This document shows positions 40,434 to 60,200 of a DNA stretch of 64,000 nucleotides, piece after piece. The notes beneath the pieces were generated by a model, which searched no databases, was not told the DNA's origin, and saw only the letters and a program-made list of their open reading frames with translations. The stretch covers positions 1-64,000 of the forward strand of contig JAODUO010001344.1 in NCBI GenBank assembly GCA_025642075.2, written 5' to 3'. The translations under genes and the position numbers were made by a program. Origin of the DNA: Ridgeia piscesae (taxonomy: Eukaryota; Annelida; Polychaeta; Sabellida; Siboglinidae). Numbering within the stretch: the first letter of the stretch is position 1; the number at the start of each line of letters is the position of its first letter.

Positions 40434-43400
40434 ATGGCGTGTCCCATTAACGACTCCAGCGCTCCCCTGAAGGAGGTGAAACGGTTGCAGTTCGGCGTCC
40501 TCAGCCCGGATGAAATTGTACGTGAATGGTTTTAACATTCACTGTAATGAATCAGATCTATACACTGTAAATAAATGTACATTTCTTTCTTTGTCAAATT
40601 TGTATATTGCGCTGGTGACCCCCTGTGTTTACCTCCATTTTCCGGCCACTCGGTACACACTAGTTTGACAACATACTTTTCCGAGTGATGTACATAATGC
40701 TTAATTTTTGGTATCATCAAAGTATCGCAGCCAGGCGCACGTTGGTAATTAAGCTTTTAAGCATTTTCTTTTTCCTCCCACTTTTCCACCATGCCGACAT
40801 TTATTAGGAATGTAGCTAGCTACTTTCCTGCAGTGTAGTCTATAGAGCAGGGTCAGAACAAAAAAATTAGGCCCAATGTTTTATTGAGACAATAAAATTG
40901 TACACAGCACTGGCAACGTTCAACATGGATGATGTCATTAAGCACACATAAAGAAAATATAGCAACAGCTGACACCGTTTAACTGCATGTATTAGACAGG
41001 CTAACTTTGCTTTAAAAAATTGAGATTGACAGTTTTTTAAACATGCCAACATTTCCCATAGACAACGCATAGGAAAATGATGCTCATCATGTATTTAGAA
41101 TGATTCTAGGTGATTGACCATTTATGTTGTAGCGTCGAATGTCTGTCACTGAGGGTGGTATTCGCTACCCTGAGACAATGGAAGGTGGCCGTCCGAAGCT
41201 TGGGGGGCTGATGGACCCACGCCAGGGGGTGGTGGACCGGGGTTCACGCTGCCAAACTTGTGCAGGGAATATGACCGAGTGTCCGGGTCACTTTGGCCAC
41301 ATCGATCTCGCGAAGCCGGTGTATCACGTTGGATTTCTGACAAAGACCATCAAGATCCTGCGATGCGTGTGCTTCTTCTGCAGCAAGCTGCTCGTGGATG
41401 CGGTTAGTTGAATATGTGGCACATTTCAGGGGTAGATAAACATTGTAAATATATTGCATTGATAAATACATCCGGTAAATGTATTGAAAATAACCAGTTG
41501 TCGTAACATTTCAAATGTCCACTACACAAGATTCAAATATGTTATACCATACCAAAATATTATAATGCAGTCTTCAGTCATCAGCACACCAATGAGCCAC
41601 TTTTGGGTCTAACCATGGAGTTTAGTACGGTGTTGTGCAGTGCACCATATGGTTGGGGTTTTAACATGTTTTAAAATGACAATTGTGTAACAATTAAAAA
41701 TGAAAAATTTGTGCAGTTTAGAAACTTGGCAGATTCTGGAGACATAATTGTATGTTCTGGCAGAATGTTGGCAATCTGAAAAAAAATATTTCACTAAACA
41801 ATGAATAAATGGTTATAAAATTTACACAAGGTGGGTAAAACACAAGAAAACTATGTCTACTTTAGAAACTCTGCCATAGCTGGTCGGTAAGCATTAGTCA
41901 CTGATCGTATGCTCAAAGTTGCAAGTTGATCTGTCTGGGGCACGGAGACTGATGTCATTAGCAGTGCCATCTGCTGGGTCAGTTTGACTTCTACGCCAGA
42001 CTAGTTTGTGACCCATCTGGTGTCAGTGTCACTGTGTTTTATTCTGTTGTGTTTTGTTGCTAGAACCATCCCAAGATAAAGGACATCGTTGTCAAATCAA
42101 AGGGTCAGCCCAGGAAGCGACTGGCAAATGTCTATGACCTTGTGAAGGGGAAGAAGGTTTGTGAGGGAGGCGACGAGATTGAGCGCAACGATGAAAACTC
42201 GCAAAATCCAGATGAAACAAAAAAGGTAAGTCATTTTGCTGCAGCTGTAAAAATTGGGACTAAAACATTTTTTTAATTGTTTTTGGTGAAGAGAAATCCA
42301 CACGTGAAGACTAATCATATAGATAAATTTAAAAAAAATATATATCATAACTTTAGATGTTCTTATGTTGTGATTGGTTAACAACATCACCAACAGTTCA
42401 CATGGTAGGTGTGTGATGATTTATGTCTGTCACCGTGTGATTTTATAAACTGGTGTGTGTTAAATCATCAGCATCAGTAGAATCCCAAAGTAGACGTGTG
42501 AAGATTAGGTGAGACTAGGAGAATCCATCATGAAACAATGCACAATACATGTGGCTATATTTTGTTTTAATTTCTTTCTGCTGCTCTCAGCTGACCCACA
42601 GCGGCTGTGGACGCTACCAGCCAGGGATACGACGCAAGGGCCTTGAGTTGACGGCTGAGTGGAAGAACGTGAATGAGGAGTCACAGGAGAAGAAGATCGT
42701 GCTGACAGCCGAACGTGTGCATGAGATCTTCAAGCGCATCTCGGATGAGGACAGCACCGCTCTTGGCCTGGACATTGTCCAGTCACGGCCTGACTGGATG
42801 GTCATCACCGTGCTGCCTGTACCCCCCTTGTGCGTGCGTCCAGCAGTTGTCATGTTTGGCTCGGCCAGGAATCAGGTAAGAGACACTGTTTTGTGTTATT
42901 TTCTTTTTTGAAAAGTATGATTGTGTTGAAACTGAACATAAAAAGAGACATCATACCTGCCTGTGTCTCAGTGTGCCTACACTTTTTTGTTTTATATATT
43001 GGAGTGAGTCTAGTTCTGTAGTCATTCATGTACAGTTGAGTAAAATATGATTATGAAATGTTGACACTCAACCTTACTGTCATCTGTAACCAGAACAAGT
43101 GCTGCTAGGTGCAAGGAAGTATAGATACACCAGAACTCCACTTAAACAGACTGATGTGGGATGTGTTGGTTGCGCATGATGATCTTACCATTATATTGTT
43201 TGTATCACTGCGCAATAGTCTGATGTGGGGGTGTTGGATGTATAGGATAATGTCACCATTATATTGTGCATTAGACTGACGTGGGGCGTGTTTGTTGTGC
43301 AGGATGATCTCACCCACAAGCTGGCTGACATCATCAAGGCCAACAACCAGCTCAAGTGTAATGAGGTGAACGGTGCCGCGGCACACATCATAGCCGAGGA

Positions 43401-57200: not shown

Positions 57201-60200
57201 TGGGAATAGGCCTTACCGTATTTATACCTGTGTAGTAGTGATTTATAAGTAAATATTGTGCTTGTGTTTTAGCAGTTGGCATGTTTAGTCCTTTGGGCCA
57301 ATATACTTAATGGCATCACTCCACCAAGAGCTGGCCGCCGTTAGCTCCCATGTCTCGGAAACCATTATTGTATATTAGGGCACTGTCATTGTGAACGAGA
57401 AATTAATATTTAATTGGATAGTTCTGAAGGTACCCAACGGCAAACATTCTTGGGTTGTGTCGTAAGTAACATGACATGTCTTGTGACTGTCGGGTGTAAT
57501 GAGTAACATGACAACATATGGCTGCGTCAGGTGTCATGAATAACATGACGTGTCATGTGACTGTGTCAGGTGTACATGCACCTGCCAACGACAGACGACA
57601 AGAAGCGTGTGGTGATCACGGACGAGGGTGAGTTCAAGGGCATTAAGGAGTGGATCCTGGAGACAGACGGCTCCAGTCTCATGAAGGTCCTCAGTGAGAA
57701 AGATGTCGACCCCGTACGCACATCCTCCAACGATATCGTCGAGATATTTGCCGTAAGCACCGTTTAATTTTGTGTCTTGTAACATTCGGTTGGTGTAAAT
57801 GTGTCCAAAGATTGATTTATAAGTTGTTGAGAAAAAAACAGTTCCGTTACTAGCCATTGATATAAATGCATAATGCAATTTAAACTTGTGTAGTTGAGTG
57901 TATGCTTTTTAAATTGATCTCGCTATTTTATAATCTTGTCTACCAAACACTGACACACACTACTAGGATACATTTAGTTGAAGTGCCTCAGAAATAGTGT
58001 GCGGAGACAAGAGTTACATTTTGTAAAAGCTCAAAATTTTACAACAGCGCAATAGTCTAATGACGACAGTGCCTTAGAAGTTCATTATTTTGGGGAAACA
58101 GTCATCCTCACTTCTTACTCTGTCTCGTTCAGTGTCTGGGCATTGAGGCTGTGCGGAAGGCGATTGAGCGCGAGATGTTCCATGTGATCTCGTTCGACGG
58201 CTCCTACGTCAACCACCGCCACCTGTCACTTCTATGTGACATCATGACAACAAAGGGACATCTGATGGCCATCACGAGGCACGGCATCAACCGACAGGAC
58301 ACTGGTGCACTAGCTCGCTGCTCCTTTGAGGAGACGGTCAGTATTGCTTACTCTCTCAGAATTAGTTGTTGCAGTCAGTTTTACTTTTGTATTTGATCTA
58401 TCCGTCACCTGACCTGTTGCCTAGCAAAATGTCCATAAAATGTTTGGTTAGTCCGTTGTATGTTTCGTTGGATTTCTTATACTGCAAAGTGTTAACTGTA
58501 TGTGGGAATGTGTTCAGCCATGCTACAGTTAATTTGCGCATAGACTATACACAAACATCCACATTTTTGGTCATACACCTGAGCGAACTCGAAATTAAAT
58601 ACCCATTACATTAAATACAGGGTCTGTAGTGAGCAGTATCAGCCAAAATGCTGTAGGCAAGCAGACTGCCAATCTTAGCACTACACCATTACCGGCATTT
58701 GGAAAGCTGACTTATTAAATTATACTCATGTTTTGAAAAATCTTGAATAGTTTTTAATTTGAAATCTTATGAACAGACCCTGTGTAAGAGTGAACAGACC
58801 CTGTGTGAGAGTGAACAGACCCTGTCTGAGAGTGAACAGACCCTGTCTGAGAGTGAACAGACCCTGTGTGAGAGTGAACAGACCCTGTGTGAGAGTGAAC
58901 AGACCCTGTGTAAGAGTGAACAGACCCTGTGTGAGAGTGAACAGACCCTGTCTGAGAGTGAACAGACCCTGTCTGAGAGTGAACAGACCCTGTCTGAGAG
59001 TGAACAGACCCTGTGTGAGAGTGAACAGACCCTGTGTGAGAGTGAACAGACCCTGTGTGAGAGTGAACGAGTACGGCTGAGACTGTCCAACTGACACTGA
59101 GACTTGTATTTGTGTCTGGCAGGTGGACATCCTGATGGAGGCCGCGGCCCACGGTGAGTTTGACCCGATGAAAGGCGTGTCCGAGAACATCATGCTTGGT
59201 CAGCTGGCGAAGATTGGCACGGGTAGCTTTGCCCTGATGCTGGACGCGGAGAAGTGCAAGGAGGGCATGGAGATACCCACCAACATCGGGGGCAGCATGA
59301 TGGGGCCAGGTAGGTCAGACAGCTGGTCTTGTGCCACAGTGGCGTTGAAGGTTGACAAAGGAGTAAAATTAAATACCCGTTATAATGTTTTCATGCCGTC
59401 TGTACATTGCATTTTAGATTTGTATAACTTTGGTAGGGATGGCTGGGATTTTATTTAGATGGGTGAATAGTTAGTTAGATGGTGATAGTTTCGTGGGTTA
59501 ATCACAAGTTTGTATACATTTGTGCTATGGATCAATCAATCATTCAATTTATTTAAAAACACAACATGAGAAACAAAACCAGTGAGGTAAAATCTTGTGA
59601 TGAGATCATTGTTTTGTATTACACGTGAGCGAAGAAATGCACCCAGCAACACGGCTTTATGTAGGATAAAATTATTGCCAGTCACACATGTTTTGTTGGA
59701 CACATGGATGTTAACTGTTAAGCCAGTTTACAAACTTTTAAATGTGTCTGATGACCTAAAATGGACTACAAACACACATGTGACACCATTTTCACTCACT
59801 TTCAAAGCATAACTAACAATATCTATGGTTTTGGAAGACTTGCTCCATGTTTTACCCGTCCGCAACCCGTGCGCCATATGCCTACCCGTCCATATTCGTT
59901 TTTACCCGTCCAAATGACGGGTGGACGGGTCTCTACATAAAGCTATGCCCAGCAACAATGAACCATGTATGATACCAATTTCAAAGGCACAAATGTATGT
60001 TTATATGCCAATCAGCCAAGCCACTGTAATGTACTTGAAGACTCATTCATACTTGTTCCGTAGTTGCACTTGCTGCATGTGTGATGTCGTGATGTTATTG
60101 TATTCTGACCCCTGTCCATCGTCCCATCTCCAGGAGCAGGGATGTTCTTCGGCAGTGCGGCCAGCCCGTCTAGTACCATGGGCTCCCCCCAGATGACGCC

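Follow-up and report, generated by a model that had tools for sequence, protein, structure and literature searches.

Minisatellite copies of splice junctions in the introns of POLR2A and CCT chaperonin genes of the annelid Ridgeia piscesae

The gene POLR2A (RPB1) of Ridgeia piscesae carries tandem repeats in its introns, and the question raised by this locus is how such repeats come to include the splice junctions of an essential gene and why they are tolerated there. The gene lies on contig JAODUO010001344.1 of assembly GCA_025642075.2 (628 Mb, 4875 contigs), of which positions 1 to 64,000 of the forward strand, 64,000 nucleotides (nt), constitute the window analysed here. An earlier examination of its letters, hereafter the sequence-only reading, had reported that repeat units in several introns contain the junction itself. 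The gene was modelled with 25 coding exons, all introns were of the GT-AG type (24/24), and the frame of 1974 residues had no internal stop. Its best protein match was RPB1 of Lamellibrachia satsuma, with 98% identity over the 1499 residues searched; the next-best matches reached 82–84%, and Branchiostoma floridae 80%. Lamellibrachia is a vestimentiferan annelid.

For every one of the 48 POLR2A junctions, a 40-nt segment covering the junction was aligned with the intron to which it belongs and, as a null, with same-length pieces of other introns (200 draws). All 200 draws were beaten at eight junctions, namely the acceptors of introns 4, 10, 14, 16, 20 and 21 and the donors of introns 5 and 15, and seven of them kept p < 0.01 in a second run with a different null. 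The copies are clear for acceptors 4, 14, 16 and 21 and for donor 15, partial for acceptor 20, and weak for acceptor 10 and for donor 5, the latter a marginal addition to the junctions reported earlier. By alignment, the copied stretch contained 12, 6, 16 and 9 exon bases in introns 4, 14, 16 and 21, respectively, confirming that the repeat unit holds the acceptor together with exon-like bases; the donor-side copies of intron 15 held 18 and 22 exon bases, and the unit there does carry the exon end and the 5' splice site, as had been claimed. The same claim for intron 10 stood in part: its acceptor beat the first null, was lost in the second run, and its clear copy (46891–46929, matching 47085–47121) included no exon base. 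The array of intron 20 had been said to stop about 10 bases from the acceptor, and TRF (Tandem Repeats Finder) gave 11 nt; by gapped alignment its unit may extend 19 nt into exon 21.

Taken alone, TRF placed junction arrays in POLR2A introns 15 and 16 only, with that of intron 20 near. For intron 16 the repeat reached 49 bases into exon 17 by this method (16 by alignment). The array of intron 14 stopped 66 nt short of the acceptor and none was reported at the junctions of introns 4, 10 and 21, so that the junction copies of introns 4, 14 and 21 are those given by the alignments. Arrays in introns 6, 13 and 23 made no contact with a junction (TRF).

The chaperonin genes were used as an independent sample. 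A profile search with Pfam PF00118, based on exon matches, yielded eight CCT genes and HSP60, and 146 kb around them were examined. CCT7 was assigned to the eta subunit, since all subunit-named proteins among the best 120 of 7785 matches were eta, and CCT5 to epsilon from comparison; the other subunits bear the names that we presume for them. Sixty-two neighbouring CCT exon pairs were tried, and one rule accepted 40 and not 22; two of the accepted pairs, which skipped a recognisable exon, were dropped, leaving 38 introns. HSP60 (C580) was excluded and the first CCT7 exon was outside the model. The total sample therefore comprised 62 introns of one genome (24 of POLR2A and 38 of CCT genes).

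Self-copied junctions are far above chance in this sample: at p < 0.01 they were 11 of the 62 acceptors (5/24 in POLR2A, 6/38 in CCT genes) and 4 of the 62 donors (two in POLR2A, 2/38 in CCT genes), where chance would give about 0.6 of 62 on each side. Junction copies occur in POLR2A and in five CCT genes, and the recurrence suggested by the sequence-only reading was borne out within POLR2A and in other essential genes. The array of CCT7 intron 7 consists of a 44-bp unit repeated 52 times and reaches 15 nt into the exon; the corresponding reach is 9 nt in CCT7 intron 9 (48-bp units), 7 nt in CCT5 intron 3 (27 bp, 34 units) and 38 nt in CCT3 intron 1 (54-bp units), and the array of CCT3 intron 4 is located on the donor side. 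Alignment scores were 34–39 of a possible 40 in CCT7 intron 7, CCT5 intron 2 and CCT3 introns 1 and 4, the null maximum being ≤16. CCT5 intron 2 contains a single 470-bp tandem duplication, with 14 mismatches in 457 positions and its right break within the exon, which is likely an early stage of array formation. Its exon-like copy shows three residue changes, and at two of these positions human CCT5 has the R and K of the true exon.

Copies of the acceptor were counted in 11 introns (POLR2A introns 4, 10, 14, 16 and 21, and six of CCT genes; POLR2A intron 20 was outside this list) at an identity of at least 69%, and splice sites were scored with matrices trained on the 24 POLR2A introns. A total of 128 acceptor copies were found, 121 of them retaining AG and 85 scoring within 0.5 bit of the true site or above it. 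POLR2A introns 10 and 21 contributed none of these, and the 51 other introns contained 14 positions above the same threshold. In CCT7 intron 7 all 47 copies kept AG, and 46 matched the true site in strength. Use of an AG-bearing copy would add a stop in 120 of the 121 cases, and the statement that the repeats create many decoy sites, most leading to early stops, holds for the introns tested. The CCT7 model built from the last copies agreed with P0123 in 531 of 543 positions and with P0124 of L. satsuma in 530 of 543. P0123 probably derives from a transcript, because its contig of 2384 bases is too short for these introns.

These arrays are probably junction-spanning minisatellites of the 'mirage' kind described from amphioxus, made by tandem duplication and tolerated because the exon-adjacent copy gives a normal mRNA. 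A short stretch comprising the last bases of an intron and the first of the exon that follows, or less often an exon end and its donor, would be duplicated in tandem, and the array would then grow by slippage or unequal exchange. The complete copy next to the exon would stay under coding selection, while the remaining copies would turn into intron and be freed of coding constraint. If exon definition picks the last acceptor, as we suppose, the exon-adjacent site would be spliced, the message would be unchanged and the duplication would be nearly neutral, even in essential genes. Duplications across a junction could then persist, expand and drift, and those within exons would be removed, so that arrays would reach exons and barely enter them. 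The acceptor side may be favoured by slippage, if its TG-rich tract promotes expansion.

In the sample of 62 introns, the rate of self-copying was about 0.2 over the final 100 nt of the intron and 11/62 at the acceptor, and was 6/62 at 10 nt into the exon, 3/62 at 20 nt and 2/62 at both 40 and 60 nt. Among 312 segments from the interior of POLR2A exons, none reached the cut-off score of 17 and two reached 15.

The amphioxus mirages were reported in Adh3, in the globins BflGb6 and BflGb9, in PGBD5 and in troponin C, and in the passages concerned (PMC3087553, PMC3902484) they are tandem units lying across exon-intron boundaries, 3' and 5', many with AG or GT, whose splicing was regular by reverse transcription polymerase chain reaction. 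The arrays of R. piscesae likewise have boundary-spanning tandem units, a splice signal in many but not all copies, and both boundaries affected. Unit lengths of 27–72 bp in most junction arrays are within the range given in those passages (10–72 bp in Adh3, 150–160 bp in the globins), and the 470-bp duplication of CCT5 is outside it. By eye, the inner units appeared homogenised and the exon-adjacent one diverged in POLR2A introns 14 and 16, but not in CCT7 intron 7. Unlike the amphioxus examples, the present ones belong to an annelid, several are found in one housekeeping gene, and they are known from the sequence of one assembly; one array has 52 units, and 47 of its acceptor copies bear AG, whereas the two haplotypes of BflGb6 have 6 and 3 units.

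Internal tandem repeats and minisatellites at exon-intron boundaries also occur in human segmental-duplication genes, where they are able to alter splicing, according to the part of PMC2812944 that deals with them; those genes are young duplicates with often altered transcripts, whereas the genes studied here are ancient and essential and their protein is apparently unchanged. In Caenorhabditis elegans an intronic minisatellite has been linked to alternative splicing, as stated in the relevant part of PMC4039745. The juxtaposition of splice signals and exon bases further resembles intron gain by duplication of an AG/GT proto-splice site (the Rogers model, as told in a passage of PMC3087553). 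Unlike in that model, existing introns have been lengthened here and no new intron was seen. A potato RNA-dependent RNA polymerase gene is reportedly a case of intron gain by tandem duplication. Titles and opening lines of abstracts among the open-licence papers listed contain no report of junction-spanning minisatellites in annelids, and the Ridgeia genome paper, in its passages on repeat content and intron length, does not treat junction repeats. The phenomenon is therefore a known one, and what is new here is the different phylum and the large array size.

Whether junctions are preferred sites for the arrays was assessed with two nulls. From the rate of self-copied segments inside the same introns (mean 0.164), 10.2 of 62 were expected; the observed numbers were 11 of 62 acceptors and 3 of 62 donors. 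By this coverage test acceptors are neither enriched nor avoided and donors are below expectation, and a strong enrichment of arrays at junctions was ruled out. The expectation of the sequence-only reading that ordinary minisatellites should avoid the junctions of an essential gene was not upheld at acceptors, which were covered about as often as the intron interior. Avoidance would be the wrong expectation for junction-spanning duplications: after duplication of one junction a complete exon-adjacent copy remains, and selection would therefore have little reason to remove the duplication. The comparison with random positions that had been proposed as a check was made for the sampled introns by placing the 28 TRF arrays at random with an exon overhang of ≤40 nt, a null that is sensitive to the overhang allowed. 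Six arrays crossed an acceptor versus 2.3 expected (P 0.010), and seven versus 3.1 lay within 15 nt of one (P 0.014), whereas donors showed no excess (3 versus 3.1). Arrays closer to the acceptor than to the donor were 16 of 28, versus 13.7 expected, which was not significant (P 0.24).

Seeding by the junctions themselves, through breaks or slippage at acceptors linked to splicing, R-loops or transcription, as proposed by the sequence-only reading, is accordingly unlikely, although the modest acceptor excess in the placement test speaks for it, as do the larger number of self-copied acceptors than donors (11 versus 3, P 0.044) and the share of minisatellites in the nine chaperonin gene spans (23.6%, versus 8.0% of short flanks, L039–L057; higher inside in six of nine). 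It is opposed by a coverage of acceptors no higher than that of the interior of the same introns and by large arrays without junction contact in POLR2A introns 13 and 23 and in CCT5 intron 5, and the 3' bias could be explained by TG-rich sequence alone. The acceptor tract had a TG/GT density of 0.355, compared with 0.245 immediately upstream and 0.18–0.20 in the rest of the introns, and the density of the tract was higher in the 11 self-copied acceptors (0.489) than in the 51 others (0.330; P 0.0007). The TG-rich tract, rather than the junction, may thus seed arrays near acceptors. Minisatellites with a period of at least 7 made up 22% of POLR2A introns versus 3% of the remainder of the window (1–40433 and 61582–64000); together with the chaperonin values, this suggests that they may concentrate in gene bodies. 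A further possibility, that nothing was duplicated and that acceptor tracts and intron sequence look alike only by being rich in TG, would suit the marginal cases, acceptor 10 and donor 5 of POLR2A; it is scarcely tenable, given that the null was taken from other introns of the same genome with equal bias, that exon bases are copied too, and that the CCT scores cited above contradict it.

That the copies are functional decoys, regulating splicing or reducing output by poison extensions, would agree with the retention of AG, the strength of the 85 sites and the stops that nearly all AG-bearing copies would introduce, yet it is improbable, as unit sequence and length vary between introns and chance alone would be expected to give stops in such extensions. 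An assembly artefact, with repeats collapsed or stuttered at junctions, is slightly less credible still. Only a single assembly is concerned and it may give incorrect copy numbers for long arrays, but the units are diverged (TRF matches of 67–100% over the array rows, 70–98% in the main arrays), and the short diverged cases of CCT3 intron 1 and POLR2A introns 4, 16 and 21 are unlike assembly stutter.

Several observations weigh against an origin by tolerated duplication as outlined above. The acceptor excess hinges on the null, being absent against interior coverage and modest against random placement, with no overall 3' shift, and the asymmetry between acceptors and donors is borderline (P 0.044 or 0.096, depending on the cut-off). 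The TG association may be a product of array growth, cause and effect not being separated. Mismatches between exon-like copy and true exon at codon positions 1, 2 and 3 numbered 0, 2 and 3 in CCT5, and 2, 2, 9 and 3, 1, 6 in the CCT3 copies; the third-position excess in CCT3 (9/13 and 6/10) is not what plain drift of the copies would give, and the true-exon side may have changed. Use of the exon-adjacent copy is deduced from conserved proteins and not from RNA.

The coordinates of POLR2A and of its repeats are shown in Table 1.

Table 1. Position of POLR2A, its junction copies and its contrasting intronic arrays in the window
Feature	Position	Strand	Description	Evidence
POLR2A	40434..61581	+	Coding exons 1–25 and 24 introns	Gene model, protein comparison
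Intron 4	43115..43314	+	Degenerate units that run to the true acceptor (intron ends at 43302) and 12 bases into the exon; copies at 43115–43189 and 43203–43235	Junction alignments
Intron 5	43455..43521	+	Weak copy (17/20 nt) 43502–43521 of donor region 43455–43474, marginal	Junction alignments
Intron 6 (contrast)	44401..44464	+	15-bp array, 83 nt before acceptor	TRF
Intron 10	46891..47144	+	Degenerate copies toward acceptor (intron ends at 47144); the weakest of the cases	First alignment test; not significant in re-run
Intron 13 (contrast)	48984..49377	+	57-bp array in 5' part of intron, 882 nt from acceptor, no junction touched	TRF
Intron 14	50739..51240	+	Units of ~56 bp, TTGACAG kept in 7; a diverged last unit holds the true acceptor at 51234 and 6 bases of the exon	Alignments
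Intron 15	51361..51542	+	Three ~58-bp units, each containing the final ~20 exon 15 bases and the donor AAG|GTAG (junction after 51382)	Alignments, TRF
Intron 16	52179..52380	+	45-bp units; true acceptor (52331) in last one, which enters exon 17 by 16 bases in the alignment and 49 in TRF	Alignments, TRF
Intron 20	55085..56874	+	35-bp units, 50 of them, ending 11 nt before acceptor (last intron base 56885)	TRF, alignments
Intron 21	57457..57578	+	57457–57501 copies 57531–57578, spanning true acceptor (57569) plus 9 exon bases	Alignments
Intron 23 (contrast)	58770..59068	+	21-bp array, 54 nt before acceptor	TRF

Other features were recorded in the window. Intron 21 of POLR2A contains an inverted repeat (57140–57225; 34-nt arms, 88% complementary, 18-nt loop) that looks like a small hairpin element. 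Upstream of the gene a large inverted repeat is located at 38685–38889, with 97-nt arms, 95% complementary and separated by 11 nt, and a minisatellite with periods of 65 and 133 bp is found at 15468–16167. Exons of a neighbouring gene lie on the + strand at 34600–36463; we take its last exon to resemble a C-terminus of ADA2/SWIRM type, but a Pfam search with the 43 residues of that exon found no family.

Among the chaperonin regions, minisatellite occupies 54% of the span of HSP60 (L051–L052), and the CCT8 region (L047, C505) holds a long array with a spacing of ~32 bp at ~7510–8807 of the joined region, which translates as repeated 'GTDLYTGHVTQAL'. Chaperonin matches in single long open frames, over 376 and 293 profile positions in L009 (C107) and L010 (C271), are unlike split animal genes and may come from a symbiont or a contaminant, or represent copies that lack introns. 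The mitochondrial contig (C3158; L059, L060) carries, in the part read and as identified by eye, nad3, trnS, nad2, cox1, cox2, atp8 and cox3, in an order that is presumably annelid-like; cox1 is read in two frames, probably owing to indel errors or a frameshift.

We further consider it possible, as a tentative extension, that such arrays are present genome-wide in the introns of vestimentiferans, perhaps of annelids, affecting about one acceptor in six and seeded by TG-rich tracts, and that the spliceosome reliably picks the exon-adjacent site among up to ~47 near-identical acceptors. If this were true, a lancelet oddity would recur in a distant phylum and would be a general consequence of the tolerance of introns to duplication. 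Junctions of this kind are likely to defeat both gene prediction and short-read assembly, and the arrays would supply exon-like material from which new exons or introns could arise. Where dozens of acceptors are equally strong, the choice of the 3' splice site is put to the test, and the genome would thus offer a natural assay of exon definition against first-come acceptor choice.

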